Of a DNA stretch of 26,056 nucleotides, positions 6,092 through 21,085 are shown in pieces. Below the pieces are notes generated by a model that was given only the letters and a program-made list of their open reading frames with translations, did no database searches and was not told the DNA's origin. Numbering within the stretch: position 1 is the first letter of the stretch; each line of letters starts with the position of its first letter. Position numbers and translations under genes: made by a program. Source of the stretch: a virus; IMG/VR virus record IMGVR_UViG_3300046724_000350, positions 1 to 26,056 of that record. One strand, given 5' to 3'.

Positions 6092-6424
6092 TCAGTCCTG
6101 GGTCTCGAAGAGGGTGCCGTGGGAGCGGGGGTCGTTGCGGTTGAGGCCGCCGTGCTCGTCGTAGAAGAACAGCCCGGCGTGCGGGTCGCGGCTAGGTGAC
6201 TTGACGGACACGCGGCCGGATAGCTGGACGGTGTCGTTGTTGCCGGTGAACGGGGCGACCTCCAGCGTCAGGGTGAGGGTGCCCTTCTTGCCGACGGCGG
6301 TGACCTCCTGGACGAGGTCGGCGAGCATGGCGGCGGCCTCGTCGGCGAGCGCGCCGCGGTTGACCTGGGCGAGGACGTGCGCGAGCTGCGGCACTTCCTC
6401 CTTGGCGGCCTGCTGGTCGTTCAA
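6092..6424 (-). CDS. Unknown beta-rich protein with TTG start
   Basis: A 110-residue protein. It begins with a helix (QQAAKEEVPQLAHVLAQV) containing the acidic stretch EEV. A beta-strand block follows (GTLTLTLEVAPF, then DTVQLSGRVSVKSP). It ends with DPHAGLFFYDEHGGLNRND. The start is TTG, with AAGGGG at good spacing, in a TTGA overlap with the RusA stop. This is a conserved-type partner between RusA and DUF2303 proteins in actinophages as far as I can tell, but without a known function. The alternating strands suggest a small beta-sandwich. Confidence 0.65.
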   Translation of the reverse strand: MNDQQAAKEEVPQLAHVLAQVNRGALADEAAAMLADLVQEVTAVGKKGTLTLTLEVAPFTGNNDTVQLSGRVSVKSPSRDPHAGLFFYDEHGGLNRNDPRSHGTLFETQD

Positions 6425-6870
6425 GATTGCCCCTTATCGTTTTCTGTGATTGGCGGGTCATTGGGGACCTCGCGGACGTGGAGGACGATGCGGCCGCGCG
6501 GGTGCAGCGGGTACACCGGCCCGATCCGGTAGTGCACGGCGGTGACGTGCTTGCCGTCGTCGTCGGGCAGGACCCCGGCGGCGACCAGGCCGTCAATCAG
6601 CGGCTTGCCGGTGGCGGCGTAGTTGTCGGGGTCGCGGCGGCGCCGGTCGGGGGGCTGGTACTCGACGGTGATCTCGGCGCGCTGCAGGGCCGGGGCCTTG
6701 GCGGCGCGGGCCATGACGTGGGCGGCTGACTTGAGCTGCTGTGCGGCGCGGTTGCGCTCGGCCCAGTGCAGGCGGCCGTTCAGCGACAGGACCGGCAGCC
6801 CGGGGGGCAGGGCGATGCTGAGCTCGCGGGAGCCGGGTTCGCCGCTGGTGGTGACGGTGAACTCAGCCAC
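6421..6870 (-). CDS. rusA: RusA-family Holliday junction resolvase
   Basis: A 149-residue protein. The RusA catalytic block is clear: R79-D80-P-D82-N83, then K89, D93 and the DDD at 103-105 (GVLPDDDGKHV). These correspond to the metal-binding aspartates and the lysine of E. coli RusA, with the short insertion between the DN and the lysine that actinophage members often have. The N-terminal strand LPPGLPVLSLNGRLHW also fits the fold. RusA is a dimeric endonuclease that cuts four-way DNA junctions. Here it would resolve recombination or replication intermediates made with the RecT-like protein and the exonuclease. The GTG start overlaps the upstream stop by eight bases. Confidence 0.88.
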   Translation of the reverse strand: MAEFTVTTSGEPGSRELSIALPPGLPVLSLNGRLHWAERNRAAQQLKSAAHVMARAAKAPALQRAEITVEYQPPDRRRRDPDNYAATGKPLIDGLVAAGVLPDDDGKHVTAVHYRIGPVYPLHPRGRIVLHVREVPNDPPITENDKGQS

Positions 6871-7132: not shown

Positions 7133-7427
7133 GCTCGCGCGCCTCCCCGGCGGCCGGGCCGCCGTCAGTACGGCGGCCGTCCGTTAGCTCGGCGTAGGCG
7201 ACGCGGATGGCCGGGACGTCGCCGGGGTAGTGGTGGATGACCTTGAGCGCCCCGGCGAGGGTCGGATGATAGGCCGGGGTGAGTAGCGCCTGATGCTTGC
7301 GGCAGTCGGCCAGGTAGGCGCGGACGTCGGCGGTGAGCCGGTCCTTGCCGGTGAGATGAGGGGCGGCGTGGCCGCGTGTCCATTCACGGTTCGCGATGCC
7401 ACCGGTCCACCGCTGGTCACTCGCCAC
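7125..7427 (-). CDS. Unknown protein between RecT-like and RusA modules
   Basis: A 100-residue protein. The core LTADVRAYLADCRKHQ, LLTPAYHPTLAGALKVIHHYPGD (shown in parts) and VAYAELTDG is helical with a conserved-looking His pair. The tail is Gly/Arg rich. It starts at GTG 7427, 11 bases inside the RecT-like gene. No motif identifies it. Another reading frame in the same place has the GTGA-overlap start used elsewhere, but its protein is Arg/Pro/Ser-rich shadow sequence, so this frame is preferred. Confidence 0.55.
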   Translation of the reverse strand: MASDQRWTGGIANREWTRGHAAPHLTGKDRLTADVRAYLADCRKHQALLTPAYHPTLAGALKVIHHYPGDVPAIRVAYAELTDGRRTDGGPAAGEAREHG

Positions 7428-8601
7428 CGCGCGCCTCCTCGGCCGCCGTCAGCATCTCGATCAGGTACGCCCGCGTGTCCTCCTGCTTCGCGGCGGCCTG
7501 CGCCTTCCAGTGGCCGAGCGTGTCAAGGATTCCCTTGGCCTCGTTGCGGGACAGGTCCTTGGTCGACGCGAGCTCGCGGCCGATGATCTGCCCGCACAGC
7601 CCGCGCGCCTGGTCCTTCTCGTCGGAGCCGAACTGGAACTCCTTGTTCAGCACGGTCCAGATGGCGGTGATCTGCGGCGTGGTGACGGTGCCGTGGGTGT
7701 CGTAGTCGCTGTCATCGGGGCTGCTCGCGGAGCCATCGGGCGAACTCGTTGATGGCGGCGACGTCCCCTCTGGTGAGCGGACCTGGCCCGCAGGCGATGA
7801 CGCCCGCGGGGAGCCGGTAGGGTCCGGCTCTTCCTCGCCCGGCAGCGGCGGCAGCGCGTCACCGGACGGGGCAGTCGGCCCGCTGGCAGGGGCGGGGGCT
7901 GGGGGCTTCCGCGGTGCCTGCGCGGAGGCGTCCGCAGGTCCCGCAGCGGTAGGGCGGCGGCTGGCGCGCTGCGCGGTGCGGGGCTTGTCCGCCGCCGGCG
8001 GCGGCGCGCTCGCGGTGCCCTCGGCGGCGATGGCCGCCGGGCTGTCCTCGTCCGCGATGCCGTCCTCGATCTCCTCCGCCGCGTACGGCATCCCGGCGAT
8101 GACGTCGGCGAACGCGCGCCGTGCCAGCCGGGCCGACGCGCGGGCGTACAGCTTGTCCTGCGGGTAGCCGCCGAGCTGTAGCTTGGCCGTCTGCGCGTCC
8201 GCCGTGCTGAACCCGGCGGTGGTCCACTCGGCCTGCCCCTTGCGCCGGCCCTTGACGATGACGCGGGTGTTGGTGACCTCGACGTCTACCCACTCGTGGC
8301 CCTGCGCCTGGATGAGCGCCCGCATGACCATGGCGGACAGGCCGGGCTTGCCGTGGATGACGTGGATGTTGGCCAGGCTGGTCATCGGCGGAAGCCCCAG
8401 CTCGCGGCCGGTGAGGATCGCGGCGGCGGTGGCGGGGGCGGAGCCGCGCAGTCCCTCGGGGACGAACGGGCTGCGGCAGATGACCTCGGCGAGGCGGACG
8501 ACCTGGTCGGCGACCTGGATCCAGTCGTCCAGCTCGCCGCGGGGCGACGCGGCGACGGGGATCAGCTCGCCGCGGGGCTGGTAGATGGCTACTTCACTCA
8601 T
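7417..8601 (-). CDS. RecT-like single-strand annealing protein with C-terminal extension
   Basis: A 394-residue protein. Residues about 20-180 carry the RecT-type pattern: TAAAILTGRELGLPPMTSL, NIHVIHGKPGLSAMVMRAL, then the strands EWVDVEVTNTRVIVKGRR and YARASARLARRAFADVIAGM. RecT-type proteins bind ssDNA and anneal complementary strands. A Pro/Ser/Ala-rich linker (about 190-300) follows, then an extra C-terminal domain of about 90 residues starting GTVTTPQITAIWTVL with IIGRELASTKDLSRNEAKG. The exonuclease two genes upstream would supply its single strands. The ATG start overlaps the upstream stop by one base (TGATG). Sure of the family type; exact subfamily uncertain. Confidence 0.82.
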   Translation of the reverse strand: MSEVAIYQPRGELIPVAASPRGELDDWIQVADQVVRLAEVICRSPFVPEGLRGSAPATAAAILTGRELGLPPMTSLANIHVIHGKPGLSAMVMRALIQAQGHEWVDVEVTNTRVIVKGRRKGQAEWTTAGFSTADAQTAKLQLGGYPQDKLYARASARLARRAFADVIAGMPYAAEEIEDGIADEDSPAAIAAEGTASAPPPAADKPRTAQRASRRPTAAGPADASAQAPRKPPAPAPASGPTAPSGDALPPLPGEEEPDPTGSPRASSPAGQVRSPEGTSPPSTSSPDGSASSPDDSDYDTHGTVTTPQITAIWTVLNKEFQFGSDEKDQARGLCGQIIGRELASTKDLSRNEAKGILDTLGHWKAQAAAKQEDTRAYLIEMLTAAEEARGGE

Positions 8602-10511: not shown

Positions 10512-10759
10512 GTCGTCCTCCCCGTGCGCTCGGCGGTGGCCTGCTCCAGGCGCTGCCGGTGCTCGGCGGCGCTGGCCTCGGCACCGGCGAGGCGGCTGGC
10601 GCGGGCCGCGTTGGCCGCCTGCTCGGCGGCGAGCGCGTAGGCGTAGGAGTCGGCGGCGGCGAGGATGCGGTCGACGTCCTGCGCGCCGCGCTGGCGGTTG
10701 CCGCCGCGCTCGCGCCAGATGACGGATTCGAGTGCCTCGCGGGCGTCGGCGGCGGTCAC
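10508..10759 (-). CDS. Unknown Ala-rich helical protein (83 aa)
   Basis: Almost entirely helical, rich in Ala, Glu and Arg: MTAADAREALESVIWRERGG, then DVDRILAAADSYAYALAAEQ, ending in a charged coiled-coil-like tail (EHRQRLEQATAERTGR). No cysteine and no motif. GTG start in a GTGA overlap with the previous gene. It may oligomerise through the tail; nothing more can be said. Confidence 0.58.
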   Translation of the reverse strand: MTAADAREALESVIWRERGGNRQRGAQDVDRILAAADSYAYALAAEQAANAARASRLAGAEASAAEHRQRLEQATAERTGRTT

Positions 10760-11031
10760 GCTGCCGCCTTCCTCGCGGCGCGCCGGGCGGCCTGGTAGGC
10801 GCGGCTGTGCTCGTTGCCAGCCTCGGCGCAGTGGGCGCACGGCTCCTCGCGTGCGTACCGGTGCCGCTGGTAGCCCGCGTAGGTGCCGTGCGGCTGGGTG
10901 GCCTTGCGCCCGCGCTTCGCCAGCGGCGGCGGCGGCTCTTCGTCGTTCCGCAGCAGGCCGAGGGCTGTCATCTCGTCCTGCATGGCGAGGATGATCGCGG
11001 TGGCCTGGTCACCCGGGCGGACGGCGGTCAC
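10756..11031 (-). CDS. Small protein with HGTxAGYxxH and CxxC motif
   Basis: A 91-residue protein. The C-terminal half has PHGTYAGYQRHRYAREEPC followed by AHC, that is histidines H48 and H57 and cysteines C65 and C68 in a fixed order, then a basic helix (AYQAARRAARKAAA). I recognise this HGT-AGY-H-PC-x-x-C arrangement from many short actinobacterial phage proteins of unknown function. It probably binds one zinc and, given the basic tail, nucleic acid. The N-terminal 40 residues are helical. The GTG start overlaps the HTH gene's stop. Confidence 0.7.
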   Translation of the reverse strand: MTAVRPGDQATAIILAMQDEMTALGLLRNDEEPPPPLAKRGRKATQPHGTYAGYQRHRYAREEPCAHCAEAGNEHSRAYQAARRAARKAAA

Positions 11032-11270: not shown

Positions 11271-11854
11271 GCTGTCCACCTCGCCGTGGAGTCGCGCCAG
11301 CGCTCAAGCTCGGGATAGAAGGGCCGGAAGATGTTGCACGCCGCCGTCCCGCCGGCCGCCCGCATCGGCTGGGTGGGCCGGTAGTCGCCCCGGTAGCCGG
11401 GCATGGGGTGGTCGCCGGCGTAGGTGACCCACGCGGGCCGGCCGTCGTAGGGGTGCTGCCCCCGACCGGGATAATCCCTGGGCGGGGCGGTCGGGGGCAG
11501 CGTCGCCGCGCCACCGGGGGGGGTGGTGGCCACGGCGGCCGGAGGCGGGGCACCTCCGGCGTCAGTCCCGGTGCCGTCCGCAACGGCACCGGGAGCATGT
11601 GGTTGCCCCGGCCCGCACCGCGCCGCCCTCCACGACGGCGGGTCTGCGGGCCGGGGCACCGCCTGCACCGGTCGCCCGGCCGGGGCAGGGGCTGCCGCCG
11701 CCGCGCGGGGAAGCACGCGGCGGAAGATCACCGGGATCACCGGGATGAGCCGGATGAGCGTCCACGTATCGCGGGCGGCGGCGCGCAGGCGGCCCAGCCG
11801 GGCGCGGAGGGCGTCGCGGCGCTGCCCGTCGCGGCGGTGACGGCCGGCGGTCAC
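11267..11854 (-). CDS. Unknown protein with proline-rich middle
   Basis: A 195-residue protein. It starts with a basic helix (RRDALRARLGRLRAAARD) and a short hydrophobic stretch (WTLIRLIPVIPVIFRRVLP) that could lie in or on the membrane. About 100 residues of Pro/Ala/Gly-rich sequence follow, then a more ordered C-terminus (ACNIFRPFYPELERWRD). The DNA includes an eight-base G run (plus strand). The low-complexity middle makes family recognition impossible. GTG start in a GTGA overlap; the longer reading is rejected because it runs through the upstream gene. Confidence 0.52.
   Translation of the reverse strand: MTAGRHRRDGQRRDALRARLGRLRAAARDTWTLIRLIPVIPVIFRRVLPRAAAAAPAPAGRPVQAVPRPADPPSWRAARCGPGQPHAPGAVADGTGTDAGGAPPPAAVATTPPGGAATLPPTAPPRDYPGRGQHPYDGRPAWVTYAGDHPMPGYRGDYRPTQPMRAAGGTAACNIFRPFYPELERWRDSTARWTA
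11516..11523. repeat. G8 homopolymer inside the proline-rich gene
   Basis: Eight consecutive G on the plus strand (C on the coding strand). Tracts of this length can slip during replication and would shift the frame of the proline-rich protein. Confidence 0.6.
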
Positions 11855-12153
11855 GGCGTCACCAGCCGGGCGGTGAACGTGAACGGCTCTACCTGGCGCG
11901 CGGAGTCGAACGCCGCGATGAAGGCGGCTGCCGCAACGGGCATGCAGTAGGAGACCCAGATGCCGTTCTCGTCCGGGATGTCCGCGCTGACGGTGCTGAC
12001 GATGACAGTCGACTCTCCGTCGGCGTTTACGGGCGCGGTGCCGCGCAGCCGGGCGATGGCGCGGGCGATGGGGCACAGGCACAGGCTGCGCTTCTCGCCT
12101 AGCCGGATGTCGTCTGCGGTGACCTCGATCACCAGCTCAGCGGGGGCGCTCAC
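11851..12153 (-). CDS. Small actinophage protein with CPIARAIARL motif
   Basis: A 100-residue protein. It starts MSAPAELVIEVTADDIRLGE; the line SLCLCPIARAIARLRG follows, then beta strands (STVIVSTVSADIPDE) and a helix near the end (AAAFIAAFDSARQ). The layout of a strand, an acidic turn, then C-P-x-A-x-A-I-x-R is one I associate with short conserved proteins in many Streptomyces phages and prophages; their role is not known. GTG start in a GTGA overlap. Confidence 0.68.
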   Translation of the reverse strand: MSAPAELVIEVTADDIRLGEKRSLCLCPIARAIARLRGTAPVNADGESTVIVSTVSADIPDENGIWVSYCMPVAAAAFIAAFDSARQVEPFTFTARLVTP

Positions 12154-13007
12154 GACGCGGTCCCGTGGCCGTCCGCGTCCCACCCGGCGGGGACGGTGAC
12201 GGGGCGGCTGAGGTCGACTTGCGCGCCGAGCAGGACCGGCGCGGACGCCGACACGAACCCGATGCGGCTGACGGGCGCGTCACGGCGGGGCAGCCCGGCG
12301 GCGTCCTCCGGGTAGCCGGGGTCGGCGGCCTCGGCGGGGTCCGTCGCGGGCGGGAACGGCGCAGGCACGCCGTACTGGGCGTTGAAGGCGTCGGCGACCT
12401 CGGCCGCCGACGGCGCGGACGGGGCGGCCGTCGTGCGGGCGAACGGGCGCGGCGTCCCCTTGCACGACGGCAGCGGGTCATGCCCGGCGGGCAGCTCGCA
12501 CAGGCTGGTGTCGCCCCAGAGGCGCAGGCCGCACGGCGGCTCGTCCCCGGCGACGGTGAGCGGCTGCCCGGAGGCGATCGACGCGGCGAGCGCGTCAGCA
12601 TCCGTCCACATCCGGCGCATCCCGTCGTCATCCGGCCCGCAGTGGAACTGGTGCGCCCCGGCCTCGGTGCAGGCGTCGCCGTCGGGGGACACGGCGGGGC
12701 AGGCCACCGGGGCGCGCCAGGTGACCTCCTCGCCGTCGGCGCTGGTGTACGCGCAGGTGCCGGGGTGGCCGTAGTCCAGCTCGCAGTACTCGCCGGACTC
12801 ATGCCGCTCGAGGCAGTACTCCATCGGCCCGGCGGGCGCGGTCATCGCGAGGACGGCGGCCTTCGCCGCGCGGATCCCCGCGAGCGCCACGACGACGTCG
12901 CGCATCAGCCGTTCTCCGGCCGCCTCGTCGATGAGGAACTCGCGCGGCTTCGCGCCGGGGCGGACGGCGATGCTGAGCGGCATCAGCGGCTCTGGCGGTG
13001 CTGGCAC
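12150..13007 (-). CDS. Protein with three tandem CCHC metal-binding-like modules
   Basis: A 285-residue protein. Three segments follow one spacing rule, C-X9/10-C-X5-H-X3/5-C: C65, C75, H81, C85; C103, C113, H119, C123; and C159, C170, H176, C182. The first and third also share C-E-L-x-x-GH. This looks like three small zinc modules in a row, with an N-terminal helical segment (DEAAGERLMRDVVVALAG) and a Pro/Ala-rich C-terminal half. The start is GTG 13007, with AAGGAG six bases before it, which excludes the longer reading. It lies after a strong hairpin. The role is unknown; nucleic-acid or protein binding is plausible. Confidence 0.7.
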   Translation of the reverse strand: MPAPPEPLMPLSIAVRPGAKPREFLIDEAAGERLMRDVVVALAGIRAAKAAVLAMTAPAGPMEYCLERHESGEYCELDYGHPGTCAYTSADGEEVTWRAPVACPAVSPDGDACTEAGAHQFHCGPDDDGMRRMWTDADALAASIASGQPLTVAGDEPPCGLRLWGDTSLCELPAGHDPLPSCKGTPRPFARTTAAPSAPSAAEVADAFNAQYGVPAPFPPATDPAEAADPGYPEDAAGLPRRDAPVSRIGFVSASAPVLLGAQVDLSRPVTVPAGWDADGHGTAS

Positions 13008-13091: not shown

Positions 13092-13253
13092 TCAGGCGGC
13101 GCGGGCGTCCGCGGGCTGCTGGCAGGCGGCGAGGATCGCCGCGCAGCGGTCGGCCTGCTCCTGGGTCAGCGGCCCGAGCTGGATGCCGCGGCGGGTCCCG
13201 GCGGCGTAGGTCGCGGCGAGGGCGCGCGGGGCGCGGGGCTGCGGCGCGGCCAT
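13092..13253 (-). CDS. Small conserved-type protein after the Cro-like gene (53 aa)
   Basis: Starts MAAPQPRAPRALAATYAAGT and continues RRGIQLGPLTQEQADRCAAI to ARAA. The ATG overlaps the stop of the XRE gene as ATGA, so both are translated from one message. The N-terminus is disordered. The core (ATYAAGTRRGIQLGPLTQEQ) ends in a helix with two cysteines. It is the first gene after the early regulator, and may therefore be made earliest; it could be an antirepressor-like or host-takeover peptide, but there is no sequence proof. Confidence 0.62.
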   Translation of the reverse strand: MAAPQPRAPRALAATYAAGTRRGIQLGPLTQEQADRCAAILAACQQPADARAA

Positions 13254-13519
13254 CAGGACGCCTGCGCGGGCAGCGGGGCGATGAGCGCGGCGACTTCCTC
13301 GCCGACGATCCTGGCAACGGGAACGCCGAGATGGCTGGCGATGGCCTGGCAGTGGTCGAGGCGGGGGCGTCGCTCGCCGCGCTCGATGTGCCGGATGTGC
13401 CCCGCGGTCACGCCGATCGCCTGGCCCAGCTCATCAGAGGTGAGGCCACGGGATTCGCGCAGCATGCGGATGATGTGGCCCGCTGCGCTCTCCCAGTCGT
13501 GCGATGGGGTTTCTGGCAT
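13253..13519 (-). CDS. XRE-family regulator, Cro-like position
   Basis: An 88-residue protein. Residues about 12-65 (AAGHIIRMLRESRGLTSDEL, then GVTAGHIRHIERGERRP) form a full XRE helix-turn-helix. A short helical tail (ARIVGEEVAALIAP) could dimerise. It heads the leftward early operon and diverges from a second XRE gene. ATG 13519 is chosen because a TTGCGC-N17-TACCGT promoter ends seven bases before it, so the message would start at the ATG. A longer start would lie inside the operator repeats. By position it resembles lambda Cro; which of the pair maintains lysogeny is inferred. Confidence 0.8.
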   Translation of the reverse strand: MPETPSHDWESAAGHIIRMLRESRGLTSDELGQAIGVTAGHIRHIERGERRPRLDHCQAIASHLGVPVARIVGEEVAALIAPLPAQAS

Positions 13520-13526
13520 GAGTGAG

Positions 13527-13555
13527 ACGGTACTCCGCGATACTTCGCAGCGCAA
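13527..13555 (-). promoter_or_regulatory. Leftward early promoter (leaderless)
   Basis: On the minus strand, TTGCGC is separated by 17 bases from TACCGT. The -10 ends seven bases before ATG 13519, so transcription would start at the first codon. One copy of the operator-like repeat lies in the spacer between -35 and -10. Confidence 0.55.
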
Positions 13556-13630
13556 GCTTAATCCTCGCGATACTTCAAATCACTTCAGATCGCTAGTCAT
13601 ATGCGATCCGTGCCGATACAATCCGATACA
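13536..13630. promoter_or_regulatory. Operator region with four CGATAC repeats
   Basis: Two exact 11-base copies of CGCGATACTTC start 30 bases apart (13536 and 13566). Two copies of CCGATACA start ten bases apart (13613 and 13623). All four have the same orientation and share CGATAC. The spacings are near whole helical turns, as for cooperatively bound repressor dimers. One copy lies within the leftward promoter and two cover the -10 and start of the rightward one. Confidence 0.72.
13594..13622 (+). promoter_or_regulatory. Rightward repressor promoter (leaderless)
   Basis: TAGTCA is followed after 17 bases by TACAAT, five of six matches to the consensus -10. The -10 ends seven bases before ATG 13630, so the message would begin with the start codon. 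The third repeat overlaps the -10 and the fourth the start site, so binding there would autoregulate the gene. Confidence 0.6.
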
Positions 13631-14082
13631 TGTCAGACCGGGGAACCCGCGCCCCAGCGCAAGACTGGTACGACCTCGTCATTCAGACGATCGCGCTCAA
13701 GAACATGACGAAGGCGCAGCTAGCGAGCCGCTCGGGCGTCTCGCGCGCCACCATTGACCGGTGGGGGAAGGGCGCGAGCCGCCCGGCTCAGGCCGCCTCC
13801 GTCAATGCCGTCGCCGACGTCCTCGGCATCCCCCGCGAGCGCGCATTGCGCCTGGCCGGGGTCATTGCCGCCGACCCGGCGGAGCCCGAGCGCTCCCCGC
13901 CGCGCGACGTCATTGACGAGGCGTTCGGTGATAAGGCCGGCGACTTCCGCGAGGCGGTGCGCCGCATCCACGGCCCCGACGCGGACCGCAAGCTCAGGCT
14001 CGTGGAAGAGGCCCTGAGTCAGCCGCCCGCCGCAGATGACGCCGCTCCCGGCACGCCTGCCGCTCGGCCAGCTCCGCGATGA
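13630..14082 (+). CDS. XRE-family repressor, CI-like position
   Basis: A 150-residue protein. Residues about 12-70 (WYDLVIQTIALKNMTKAQLA, then SGVSRATIDRWGKGASRP and AVADVLGIPRERAL) are an XRE-type helix-turn-helix domain. The C-terminal 80 residues (VIDEAFGDKAGDFREAVRRI onward) are helical and charged; there is no peptidase Ser/Lys pair, so no LexA/CI-type self-cleavage domain. Induction, if it occurs, must use another route. It diverges from the Cro-like gene and is followed by the integrase region, the usual place for a lysogeny repressor. The gene's last 89 bases overlap the 3' end of an opposite-strand gene. Confidence 0.78.
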   Translation: MSDRGTRAPAQDWYDLVIQTIALKNMTKAQLASRSGVSRATIDRWGKGASRPAQAASVNAVADVLGIPRERALRLAGVIAADPAEPERSPPRDVIDEAFGDKAGDFREAVRRIHGPDADRKLRLVEEALSQPPAADDAAPGTPAARPAPR

Positions 14083-14754: not shown

Positions 14755-16140
14755 GTGGAAGACGCCGCCCCGAGGGCCGCGATCTACACCCGCATGTCGT
14801 ACGCGCTGGACGACGACCAGACCAAGGTCGCCGACCAGGAGCGCAGGTGCCGCGAGCTCGCCGCCGCGCGGGATATCGAGGTCGGCCCGGTCTACACCGA
14901 CAACAACCGCTCCGCGTGGCGGCGTGGCCGCAAGCGCCCCGGCTGGGACGCCATGCTGGCCGGCATCGAGGGCGGCCGCATCGCCACTATCGTCACCTAC
15001 CACGGCGACAGGCTGATGAGGCAGCCGCGCGACCTGGAGACCCTCATAGAACTGGCCGAGTCCAAGGGCATCCGGATCCTGTCGGTGGCCGGGACGCGCG
15101 ACCTGGACTCCGCCGATGACCGGTTCATCCTGCGGATCGAGGTGGCCCAGGCGTGCAAGGCGTCCGACGACTCGTCCCGCCGCAAGAAGGCGCAGCTGGA
15201 GCGGTGGCGGGCAGCGGGGCGCACGGTGACCGGCGGCCGCGGCGGCCGGCCGTACGGGTTCGCCACCGACGGGGTGAGCGCGGTCCCGGCCGAGCAGGAC
15301 GTCATCAGGGACGCCGCGCGGCGGGTGCTGGCCGGCCAGTCGGTCACGTCCGCGGCCCGTGAGCTCACCGCCGCGGGGCACCGCACCCCGGCTGGGAACG
15401 CGTGGACGCACGACAGCCTCCGCAAGATGCTCGCCCGGCCGCGGCTGGCCGGGCTGATGCCCGACGGCGAGAGCCGCGCCGCATGGGAGCCGGTGCTGGA
15501 CCGCGAGGAGTGGGAGCGGCTGCGCCTGGCGCTCGACGGCCGCGCGGCCGCCAACCCGAAGGCGACCAGCGCCCGCAGGTGGCTGCTGGCCGGCATCGCC
15601 CGCTGCGGCGCCCCGGGCGCCGACGGCGAGTGCGGCGGCCTGATGCGCTCATCCCGCGCGGGGGACAACAGGCCGGTCTACTCATGCTCGGCCTGCCGCC
15701 GCCTGGACCGGTCCGCCGTCCACCTGGACGCGTACGTGTCCGCGGCGGTCGCGGCCCGGCTCGGCGACGAGGCCAACCCGGTGCCCGCCGTGCCCGCCGT
15801 GCCAGCGCACGCGGCCGAGTGGGCGGCGCTGGGCAGGCAGCGCGCCGAGGTCGACGCCCTCCTCGGCGACTACCGGGCGAGCGCCGGGCGCACGCGGACG
15901 CTGATGCGGCAGCTGGACCAGATCGACGCCCGGATGGCCCAGCTGCGCGAGCAGGCGGGCGCGTCCGAGCGGGAGCGGCTGCTAAGCCAGTACCGCGGCA
16001 CCACGCTGGCGGAGTTCCTGGACCTCCCGCTGGACGTGCGCCGGGCGCTCACCCGGGCTACGGTGAAGGTGACGGTGCTGCCCGCCAGCAGGCGCGGGCC
16101 GGGATTCCGGGAGTGCGATGCCCGCGTGGAGACCGCGTGA
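14755..16140 (+). CDS. int: Large serine integrase
   Basis: A 461-residue site-specific recombinase. The catalytic domain (about 1-150) has R13 and nucleophile S15 in IYTRMSYALDDD, and D85-R86 with R89 in GDRLMRQPRDLE. A recombinase domain (about 165-260) follows. A zinc ribbon has C284, C293, C311 and C314. A coiled-coil segment (about 355-405) is rich in Gln, Leu and Asp. This is the full order of large serine integrases (the phiC31/Bxb1 class), at a normal length. It inserts phage DNA at a host attB by double-strand breaks with a covalent Ser-DNA intermediate. The GTG start has GAGG nearby. Both site and directionality factor are unidentified. Confidence 0.93.
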   Translation: MEDAAPRAAIYTRMSYALDDDQTKVADQERRCRELAAARDIEVGPVYTDNNRSAWRRGRKRPGWDAMLAGIEGGRIATIVTYHGDRLMRQPRDLETLIELAESKGIRILSVAGTRDLDSADDRFILRIEVAQACKASDDSSRRKKAQLERWRAAGRTVTGGRGGRPYGFATDGVSAVPAEQDVIRDAARRVLAGQSVTSAARELTAAGHRTPAGNAWTHDSLRKMLARPRLAGLMPDGESRAAWEPVLDREEWERLRLALDGRAAANPKATSARRWLLAGIARCGAPGADGECGGLMRSSRAGDNRPVYSCSACRRLDRSAVHLDAYVSAAVAARLGDEANPVPAVPAVPAHAAEWAALGRQRAEVDALLGDYRASAGRTRTLMRQLDQIDARMAQLREQAGASERERLLSQYRGTTLAEFLDLPLDVRRALTRATVKVTVLPASRRGPGFRECDARVETA

Positions 16141-17797: not shown

Positions 17798-20700
17798 TCA
17801 TGAGGCGAACGGGGCTTCCGGCACGCACGCCAGCGCGACGTCGAACCGGAACCCCGAGATCGTCCAGGTGAACCCGAACGCCAGCTGGTTGATGTCCGCC
17901 GACGTCAGGTCGGCGGGGCCGTTGACCACCCGCAGGTAGTCACCGGGGATCATCGCCACCACCTGCGCGTACAGCTCGGCCGCCGCGCTGCGGCTCAGCT
18001 GGAAGTTCACCGCCGGGTACCGGTCATCGTCGACGGTGCCCAGCTCCAGGATCCTCGCCGCCACGCCCGCCAGCTGGCTGTCAGCGTAGGCGTTGACGGT
18101 CAGCGGGAACGGGTACTGGCCTGCGCCGTCCGGCGGCGCAAGGTAGGACAGCGCCCCGGCAGACTGCCGCACGGTCACGCTCGACCCGTTGACCCGGCTC
18201 ACGGTGACGATGTTGCGGGTCAGCAGGTCATCCTCGGTCGGCAGGAACGGCGCGGACAGCTGCGCGAGCGAGTAGTCGGCGATCACCTTCGGGTGCTGGG
18301 CGGTCATGCTGGCCAGGGTGCGGTACGCCAGCCCGAACACGCTCGCCGGCTCGTACAGCAGGCCGCCGTCGAGGTCGGGGATCTGCTGCAGGACGTTGAT
18401 CAGCTTGTCATCGGGCTGCGGGCCCATCGCCGGGGTGGCATCGACGTTGCCCGGGATTGCGTACTGGACGCCCTCCTCGCTGCACAGGCGGATGAACCGG
18501 CGCCCGGCCCGCTCCTGGGCCCAGCCGGAGACCGGGCCGAGGCCATTGACGTTGCTGCCGGCCAGGCTGCTGAGCGCCTCGGAGGAGTACTGGACCAGGA
18601 GGTGCCCGAATGACGTGCTGGTCAGCGCGCCGCCGGGGTTGACGTCGACCTCGGGGACGCCGCCGATGCCCCCGGACGCTGACGCGGTCCCGCCCGTCGC
18701 GGTCTGGCTCGACGGGTTGTTGGCGGGCATCACCCGCAGCACGTAGCCGACCGTCGCGCCGGGGACGAGCTCCATGGACACCATGAAGGGGACGCCGTTG
18801 ACCCCGGTGATCCCGGCCGAGGTGAACAGCAGGCCGCCGCCGGCGTTCTTCCCGGTGAGGGTCAGCGTCCCCGATGACGCGGTGGTGTAGGTGAGGATGA
18901 CCGTGGCCACGACGCCGCCGGTCAGGTACTGGCACACGACCGCGTTGTTCGTGTCGCCGCCGGCCGGGACGTGCAGCAGGAACCGGGTGAAGTTCCCCGC
19001 CGGGGCGGCCAGCGGCGTCCAGGACAGCTTCACCTTCCCGGCGCCGCCGTTGCCGCCGCCGTGCGCGGCCTGGCTGCCGGCGTTCATGCCGCCGGACCCG
19101 CCGCCGGCGCCGGGCACCGCGCCCGCGGTGCCGCCCTGGTCGGCCGCTCCGCCGTTGCCGCCCTTGCCGCCCGCGCCGCCGCCGGTGACCGCCGCTCCCC
19201 CCGCCGCGCCGGTGTTGCTCGCGCCGCCGCCAGTGCCGTTGTTCCCGGCCGCGGCCGTGCCGCCGGACGACCCGCCGCCGGACCCCCCGTAGAACAGGCC
19301 GGAGTTCTTCCCGCCGTTGCCGCCGTTGTGATGGGTGGCGTTGGCGCTCCCGGTGCCGCCCTTCCCGGACCGGGTACCGGTGAACAGGCCTCCGCCGCCG
19401 CCGTGGGCGGTCACCGTCACCGCGTCGCCGGGGAAGGATGACGTGCCGCCGTTAGCGCCCTGCCGCTGCCGCAGGCCGGTGGCGATGGTGGCCAGCGGCC
19501 CGCCCGCCCCGCCCGCGCCGACCGTCACCGTGTACGCGGTCCCCGCGGTGACCGCCACCGCGGTTTCCTTCGCGTACTCGCCGCCGCCGCCCGCCGCGTC
19601 CATGTTGTTATTGGCCTGGTAGCCGTTCGTCCCGCCGCCGCCGCCGGCCCAGCACTCCGCCGCCGTCAGCGACGTCAGCCCGTCCCGCGGAACGAACGAG
19701 TGCGTCCCGGGGCTGGTGAACGTCGCCGAGCCGGGGTCGCCGAACGGGCCGGTCAGGCAGGTGATCACGGCCCCGTTCAGCGCCGGCAGCGGGTCCGACC
19801 CGCCGAAGCTGGCATCAGAGGCCAGCGTCGGCGTCCCGGTGAACGTCGCCGGCGACCCGGCGCCGGTCACCTCGGCCAGCGTCGCCGACGTGGACCCGTC
19901 CTCCATCGGCCAGTACGCCACCGGGTACAGCGGGTCGGACGGGTCCTTCTGCAGGTACCAGCGGGACAGCGCCGACCCCAGGTTCCCGGCCTGGTTCAGG
20001 CGGCGGCTGATCCCCGACGCGGTGATGTCGCACCACACGTCGTTCCCGCTGGTGTCCCGGGACTTCGGCCAGGAGGAGACCTCGCCGGAGAACGCGTACG
20101 CCAGCCCGGCGTCGGTGGAGTTCCACGACGCGGGCACGAGCACCCGGATCTGGGTGTTGCGGGTGATGTACGGGTAGAACGGGCTGGCCGTGTTCTTGCC
20201 GGTGAACGTGCCGCCGCGGTTGTTCAGCTGCAGCGTGCACTTCGCGGTGACCAGCTTGGACGACTCATCGGGCTGCCCGAACGTAATGCCGACGTTCACT
20301 GACCCGTCGCGCTGGTAGACGTAGCTTGTGATGTCGGTCCAGGTGCCGTTCAGCAGCAGGTCAACCTCCAGCTCCAGCGGCCCGGACCGCGGCCACGGGG
20401 TGCCGGTGAACTGCCCGTACAGTGAGCTGTAGGCGTCGGCGTAAAGGTCGGTGTACTCGCTCATGAGCGCGGTGGCGGCCATCGTCGCCGTGGAGCTCGG
20501 GGCCAGGTCGATTTCCAGCAGCGCGGGGAAGTCGCCGGCGTCCTCGTAGGCGCAGCTGAAGAACGGGCCGCCGCCGCCCGACGTGGTGGCCAGCACCGTC
20601 GGCCCGGGCGTGAGCCAGGTGGGGGCGGCGGAGGCGTTGACGGAGAACGCGATGACGTAGCCGTTCGCCGCCGAGGGCAGCGCCGGGACGGACAGCTGGA

Positions 20701-21085
20701 AGGACGCCGCGGCGACCGTGTCCGCCGCGGCGGTGAACTGGACCGGGACGAACAGCGTCCCCGGGCCGGCCACCCCGATGAAGTTGATCACCGCGCCGGA
20801 GGAGATCGTCACCGTCAGCGTGTCCGAGGTGGTCAGCGGCGTGGTCACCCATGCCTTGTAGATCCATGCGGGCTGGCCGGTGGTGGTGGCCTGATGGCCG
20901 GCCAGGGTGTACGCGTTGCCCTTGGAGTCCGCCACGGAGCTGATCGCCGGCGTGTCGGACGATACCGAGATCCCGATCACCAGCGGCGTCCCGGCGGCCA
21001 CCGCGGACGCGAAGGTTCCCGCCGTCGAGGTGACCGACCCGGCGGAGTTCTTGCTGACGACGACGGCCGGGACGGTGAACGGCAT
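17798..21085 (-). CDS. Minor tail protein with inserted glycine-rich domain
   Basis: A 1095-residue virion protein. An N-terminal beta-sandwich (about 1-110, ISSVADSKGNAYTLAGHQ) is followed by a tail-hub type part (about 225-380, ELEVDLLLNGTWTDITSYVY, FSGEVSSWPKSRD). A LamG-like domain begins near PVAYWPMEDGSTSATLAE. At about residues 460-690 it is interrupted by a glycine-rich domain whose start, TSLTAAECWAGGGGG, then GGGGEYAKETAVAVT and AYTVTVGAGGAGG, is that of phage adhesin Gly-rich domains. LamG-type and tail-hub sequence resumes at NFTRFLLHVPAGG and runs to the end. It probably sits at the tail tip and takes part in host binding. Overlaps the next gene's stop by one base. Confidence 0.82.
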   Translation of the reverse strand: MPFTVPAVVVSKNSAGSVTSTAGTFASAVAAGTPLVIGISVSSDTPAISSVADSKGNAYTLAGHQATTTGQPAWIYKAWVTTPLTTSDTLTVTISSGAVINFIGVAGPGTLFVPVQFTAAADTVAAASFQLSVPALPSAANGYVIAFSVNASAAPTWLTPGPTVLATTSGGGGPFFSCAYEDAGDFPALLEIDLAPSSTATMAATALMSEYTDLYADAYSSLYGQFTGTPWPRSGPLELEVDLLLNGTWTDITSYVYQRDGSVNVGITFGQPDESSKLVTAKCTLQLNNRGGTFTGKNTASPFYPYITRNTQIRVLVPASWNSTDAGLAYAFSGEVSSWPKSRDTSGNDVWCDITASGISRRLNQAGNLGSALSRWYLQKDPSDPLYPVAYWPMEDGSTSATLAEVTGAGSPATFTGTPTLASDASFGGSDPLPALNGAVITCLTGPFGDPGSATFTSPGTHSFVPRDGLTSLTAAECWAGGGGGTNGYQANNNMDAAGGGGEYAKETAVAVTAGTAYTVTVGAGGAGGPLATIATGLRQRQGANGGTSSFPGDAVTVTAHGGGGGLFTGTRSGKGGTGSANATHHNGGNGGKNSGLFYGGSGGGSSGGTAAAGNNGTGGGASNTGAAGGAAVTGGGAGGKGGNGGAADQGGTAGAVPGAGGGSGGMNAGSQAAHGGGNGGAGKVKLSWTPLAAPAGNFTRFLLHVPAGGDTNNAVVCQYLTGGVVATVILTYTTASSGTLTLTGKNAGGGLLFTSAGITGVNGVPFMVSMELVPGATVGYVLRVMPANNPSSQTATGGTASASGGIGGVPEVDVNPGGALTSTSFGHLLVQYSSEALSSLAGSNVNGLGPVSGWAQERAGRRFIRLCSEEGVQYAIPGNVDATPAMGPQPDDKLINVLQQIPDLDGGLLYEPASVFGLAYRTLASMTAQHPKVIADYSLAQLSAPFLPTEDDLLTRNIVTVSRVNGSSVTVRQSAGALSYLAPPDGAGQYPFPLTVNAYADSQLAGVAARILELGTVDDDRYPAVNFQLSRSAAAELYAQVVAMIPGDYLRVVNGPADLTSADINQLAFGFTWTISGFRFDVALACVPEAPFAS

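Follow-up and report, generated by a model that had tools for sequence, protein, structure and literature searches.

The stretch of DNA analysed here (the window) is a virus record of 26,056 bases with a GC content of 72%. Judging from its serine integrase, the HTH regulators of the switch region, the leftward operon, and a tape-measure-like gene, the record is that of a temperate tailed phage. The switch region is flanked by the two HTH regulators, and the leftward operon contains a DUF2303 gene as well as the genes for a RecT-like annealing protein and a RusA-like resolvase (Table 1). Based on the GC content and the relatives of the phage, the host is probably a high-GC actinobacterium. A scan of GTDB contigs with an integrase pattern, performed as a host search, gave 49 matching stretches, none of which was confirmed. 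No tRNA was found in the window. Two other minus-strand genes were observed. The gene at 10756-11031 encodes a small protein with GTYAGYQRHRYAREEPCAHC that matches a WhiB-like PHROG (6.8e-09), and the gene at 17798-21085, located near the tape-measure-like gene, encodes a protein of 1095 aa with a Gly_rich_2 domain and a match to phrog_5313.

Table 1 Features of the window. Residue numbers are those of P0001 (277 aa), which begins at an internal ATG (12983); numbers counted from the GTG start are higher by 8.
Feature	Position	Strand	Remarks
RusA-like resolvase	6421..6870	-	Leftward operon
RecT-like annealing protein	7417..8601	-	Downstream in early operon
Next operon gene, phrog_19191 (function unknown)	11851..12153	-	Probable GTG start
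Triple-module gene	12150..13007	-	285 aa, GTG at 13007 to TGA
Module 3	12462..12533	-	C151-x10-C162-ELPAG-H168-x5-C174
Module 2	12606..12701	-	C95-x9-C105-x5-H111-x3-C115 (or H114), then W126
Module 1	12717..12815	-	C57-x9-C67-x5-H73-x3-C77, then W89
HTH_3 regulator	13253..13555	-	Upstream of triple-module gene, leftward too
HTH repressor-like gene	13630..14082	+	Divergent
Large serine integrase	14755..16140	+	

The gene of interest encodes a protein with three Cys/His modules (triple-module protein), and translation confirmed the frame, coordinates, and spacings that an earlier note on this DNA had given for it. An aaaggag sequence (13020-13014) is located six bases 5' of its GTG, and at its other end a gtga (12153-12150) overlaps its stop codon with the probable GTG of the phrog_19191 gene. 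GC at the three codon positions of the frame is 0.75, 0.61, and 0.94, and this codon composition favours the frame over the overlapping ORFs. Long ORFs overlap here on both strands, as would be expected if the frame were open by chance in DNA of such high GC content and encoded no real protein. However, this reading is scarcely credible in view of the third-position GC, the aaaggag-GTG start, and the gtga overlap with the next gene, which is common to the related locus L013. All nine Cys of P0001 are located inside the modules. Since the gene lies in the leftward operon beside repressor-like HTH genes, it is presumed to be an early gene.

The three segments that had been described as obeying C-x9/10-C-x5-H-x3/5-C were confirmed in the translation, and so was CEL-xx-GH in two of them, modules 1 (CELDYGH) and 3 (CELPAGH). 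Additionally, modules 1 and 2 are each followed by a Trp (W89 and W126), which the earlier note had missed and which occupies the place of the Trp in the relatives described below. Module 3 has no following Trp and has x5 rather than x3 before its last Cys. Module 2 has neither L-P nor a Gly preceding the His, and its fourth ligand is ambiguous in that H114 adjoins C115. The linkers between the modules are 17 and 35 residues long. The classical zinc knuckle is C-x2-C-x4-H-x4-C, and the C2H2 finger is C-x2-4-C-x12-H-x3-5-H. The modules share the CCHC order and the short unit with the retroviral-type zinc knuckle but differ in spacing, and the C2H2 finger has an H-x3-H ending like that of the CCHH relatives, whereas the long first loop and the x5 of the window modules differ from it. 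The proposal that the spacing is unlike both was borne out by the module spacings and by the lack of a Pfam match above the cut-off for the protein.

The pattern of the earlier note occurs three times in the protein, while only 8 of 20,000 shuffled sequences contained one copy and none contained two. The looser pattern of the relatives, C-x8-18-C-x4-5-H-x3-5-[CH], also occurs three times; one copy was found in 235 of 20,000 shuffles and two copies in none. When the Trp was required in addition, two copies were observed; a single copy occurred in 26 of 20,000 shuffles and a pair in no shuffle. One copy of the pattern was present in the reversed protein. Of the window ORFs with 40 codons or more, only the triple-module ORF contained the pattern with Trp, in two copies. 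The repeated pattern is almost certainly real, beyond chance.

The whole protein gave no match in PHROGs, PDB, IMG/VR, plasmids, or GTDB contigs, and no catalytic domain was found in it. In the search against phages, nothing was obtained besides one match in Arthrobacter phage Bennie, which is antisense to gene 57 of the annotation and was discarded as a chance match; a close whole-length homologue was not found. A resemblance of the N-terminus to ORFs of L014, L013, and L006 was also rejected, with 17, 750, and 620 of 1000 shuffles, respectively, scoring equally well. These small early proteins (L013:9449-9826, L014:3464-3943 on the minus strand, and L006:422-727) form one related family of their own near the same operon slot. 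They share DCDRLI(R/A)AAA and a C-x2-C-G...H finger, and for each pair of them 0 of 1000 shuffles were equally good.

Searches with the module were more productive than those with the whole protein. Module 3 with its flank, used as a query in which the ending was altered, gave weak matches in Gordonia phages, where the module layout was found in the "hypothetical proteins" of Tangent gene 62 (two copies), Patio gene 09, and PrincePatrick gene 77. A match to a methylase of Mycobacterium phage DLane was rejected because its translation contains no module. We searched IMG/VR with a DNA pattern for C-x-L-P-x-G-H-x-G-x-H and found the motif in at least 120 viral stretches. The flanks were counted in the first 80 loci of these (82 matches). 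A Cys was present 7-18 residues upstream of the motif in 65 of the 82 matches compared with 13 of 67 in a control stretch, and a Trp 11-23 residues past the second Cys in 49 of 82 compared with 8 of 35; both residues lie outside the search pattern. An iterated module profile was run over 137 loci and retained 128 domains, which belong to 124 proteins, and the first loop was 6 to 18 residues long in the 104 modules with the upstream Cys. Profile alignment A6 consists of 88 of these 104 modules; its upstream Cys column is conserved by choice, the 104 having been preselected for that residue, and the search pattern itself fixes its C-LP-GH-G-H columns. Alignment A7 has 36 rows. The family consensus reads C-x(8-18)-C-x-L-P-x-G-H-x-G-x-H...W, and on this comparison the window modules appear as its divergent CCHC form.

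The module occurs in diverse contexts. Proteins bearing it match PHROGs 33110, 21374, 25654, and others; it stands nearly alone in frames of ~40-50 aa (L021, L047, and L093) and is present in two copies in L027, L029, L096, and L235. We scanned 113 of the 124 module-bearing ORFs, leaving out 11 that were duplicates, very short, or chance-like, and found one QueC-like and one methyltransferase-like protein in which the module stands next to another domain. Every Pfam or NCBIfam family that matched did so in two of the 113 at most, and the module is therefore not modelled in either library. A full-text search of PMC, motif text included, found no description of it among the papers listed. In L208:6196-6753 (+), the module is C-terminal to a putative HAD-type phosphatase segment with DFDGVIHSY. 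The L235 and L208 proteins had no PDB match by sequence.

In the Gordonia orthologues (seven fetched plus Tangent), all four ligands and the Trp were kept in both copies in 8 of 8, and the first-loop length varied. The loss of ligands in homologues, which had been named as an observation that would speak against a metal-binding repeat, was not seen in the family; it was CCHH sets that were kept in these eight. The description as a distinct small metal-binding repeat is supported but needs amendment in two respects: it is a widespread phage module and not private to this protein, and the metal can be named as very probably zinc. The family and the window modules are alike in spacing, the CxL..GH core, the Trp (modules 1 and 2), and the occurrence of tandem copies in several proteins. 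On the other hand, the usual fourth ligand of the family is His, whereas the window modules end in Cys, and the family proteins seen carry one or two copies, whereas the window protein carries three.

With a family profile built without the triple-module protein, module 3 scored 17.8 bits, compared to 10.0 for the best of 2000 shuffles, and no other window ORF of 40 codons or more than the triple-module ORF was above the inclusion threshold. Modules 1 and 2 scored 1.4 to 4.7 and about 0.1-0.2 bits, respectively, and neither is significant alone. These results strongly suggest that module 3 belongs to the phage mini-module family. Modules 1 and 2 likely belong to it as well, on account of their ligand spacing and Trp and not of the profile score.

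Two loci are relatives of this phage. In L013, an ORF bearing the module as C-x8-C-KLPP-H-x4-H is located in the operon slot that matches that of the triple-module gene, and, as in the window, a gtga overlap joins it to a phrog_19191 homologue. This ORF aligns to residues 33-157 of P0001, a modest similarity (2 of 1000 shuffles equally good) in which module 2 lies opposite the C-C-H of the module in L013; used as a query, the ORF matched only itself. L011 is 98.5% identical to the window over 6.4 kb and ends before the triple-module gene. In a region of L011 that differs from the window, a short early-operon ORF (878-1099, +) contains the module-like CDLPPGHPG followed by a Trp.

A complete scan for the Cys-ending form of the motif yielded 107 stretches, about 20 of which are one low-GC family without the first-ligand Cys and part of the rest of which are probably chance. 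An upstream Cys was present in 49 of the 107, compared with 10 of 80 in the control, and a Trp in only 9 of 107. Proteins of the low-GC family have ~240-335 aa and CVLPKGHSG(K/P)C and are encoded on viral contigs of ~40% GC (L141, L142, L147, L169, L211, and ~15 others). One protein, L235:2763-4211 (+), contains a CCHC copy and a CCHH copy with a probable coiled coil between them. These counts, together with the mixed copies of L235, indicate that the CCHC ending of the window modules is a natural variant of the module.

To relate the module to known structures, we compared the 88-module profile with PDB, and a single match was obtained, to residues 19-31 of DraIII (4l0k), with a weak E-value of 1.6. 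PDB searches with the L060 and L028 modules gave nothing useful. The matched segment of DraIII is PHKCQLPLGHSGK, followed by C32, and is in register with the module as C22-QLPLG-H28-SGK-C32. According to the structural report, the N-terminal zinc site of DraIII consists of C4, C22, H28, and C32 with tetrahedral zinc, and the enzyme loses its activity when any one of its eight zinc ligands is changed to Ala (PMC3996161). The profile contained no information on zinc, yet its one match covers three of the ligands, the remaining one lies on the side expected for it, and this outweighs the E-value. DraIII shares with the window protein the Cys-Cys-His-Cys order and C-x5-H, as well as the H-x3-C of modules 1 and 2; these two modules fit its x5/x3 spacing, while module 3 has x5 before its last Cys. 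The C-x-L-P-x-G-H core is common to CQLPLGH of DraIII and CELPAGH of module 3. In contrast, DraIII has a single copy, in which x17 separates the first two Cys, whereas the window protein has three with x9, x9, and x10, and the DraIII site is joined to an HNH nuclease domain. No HNH (beta-beta-alpha-metal) domain was matched in the triple-module protein in Pfam (above the cut-off), PHROG, or PDB.

The module is likely a structural zinc mini-domain, and the metal is very probably zinc because the crystallographic site of DraIII has the matching ligand layout and the C-x-L-P-x-G-H-x-G-x-C core. We consider it probable that the window encodes an early phage protein built on three zinc units, each of which would coordinate one Zn2+ by a Cys, Cys, His, and Cys set like that of the N-terminal DraIII site. 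The Trp that follows two of the three modules probably packs on the zinc site. More tentatively, the three units may form a small array binding nucleic acid or a partner protein, and the array protein would then be an accessory of the early, repressor-controlled set of recombination and replication genes. The operon place and the fact that DraIII is a DNA enzyme lead us to guess at such a nucleic-acid or partner-binding accessory role. AlphaFold2 gave low-confidence models both for the canonical module (88 rows, pLDDT 54) and for the three-module region (pLDDT 52).

The number of zinc ions could be one or two if only module 3, perhaps with module 1, were a zinc unit and module 2 were decayed or a chance occurrence. 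The profile scores of modules 3, 1, and 2 (17.8, 1.4, and 0.1 bits) and the departures of module 2 at L-P, Gly, and H114/C115 would agree with this. However, module 2 has all four ligand spacings and a Trp at the family position, it aligns to the C-C-H of the L013 module, and the pattern with Trp is confined in the window to the two copies in this ORF, so that a protein with fewer zinc ions is possible but on the unlikely side.

Proteins with Cys/His units in tandem often have compound zinc sites, and with linkers of 17 and 35 residues the ligands of neighbouring modules might combine as a cross-brace into fewer compound sites in one compact domain. The existence of the module alone in frames of ~40-50 aa and the formation of the DraIII site by one module make such a combination improbable. 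A role of the module Cys in redox or disulfide chemistry instead of metal binding, which the nine Cys in 277 aa might suggest, is very doubtful, as His and Trp are conserved with the Cys across the family and the DraIII equivalents bind zinc. Three separate zinc units are our preferred reading, and the window protein is the sole three-copy form seen here, with all copies CCHC.

It also seems rather likely that the module constitutes a zinc-domain family of its own that Pfam and NCBIfam lack. It would be a portable unit of ~25-45 residues in which His and Cys are interchangeable as the fourth ligand, inserted singly, as tandem copies, or next to other domains into phage proteins that are unrelated, and present also in bacterial DraIII. 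Small structural zinc units are already known; for this one a solved example exists, but no name was found in the libraries and literature searched. Many phage genes are unannotated, and with a short signature many of the proteins now called "hypothetical" would become predicted zinc proteins. One crystal structure anchors this signature, which gives a concrete route to annotate and test them. The comparison also ties a module of phages to a domain of the restriction enzyme DraIII, which is inactive once that domain is lost. If the role is common to both, one type of unit would serve the phage proteins as well as a phage-cutting enzyme to grip DNA or partners.
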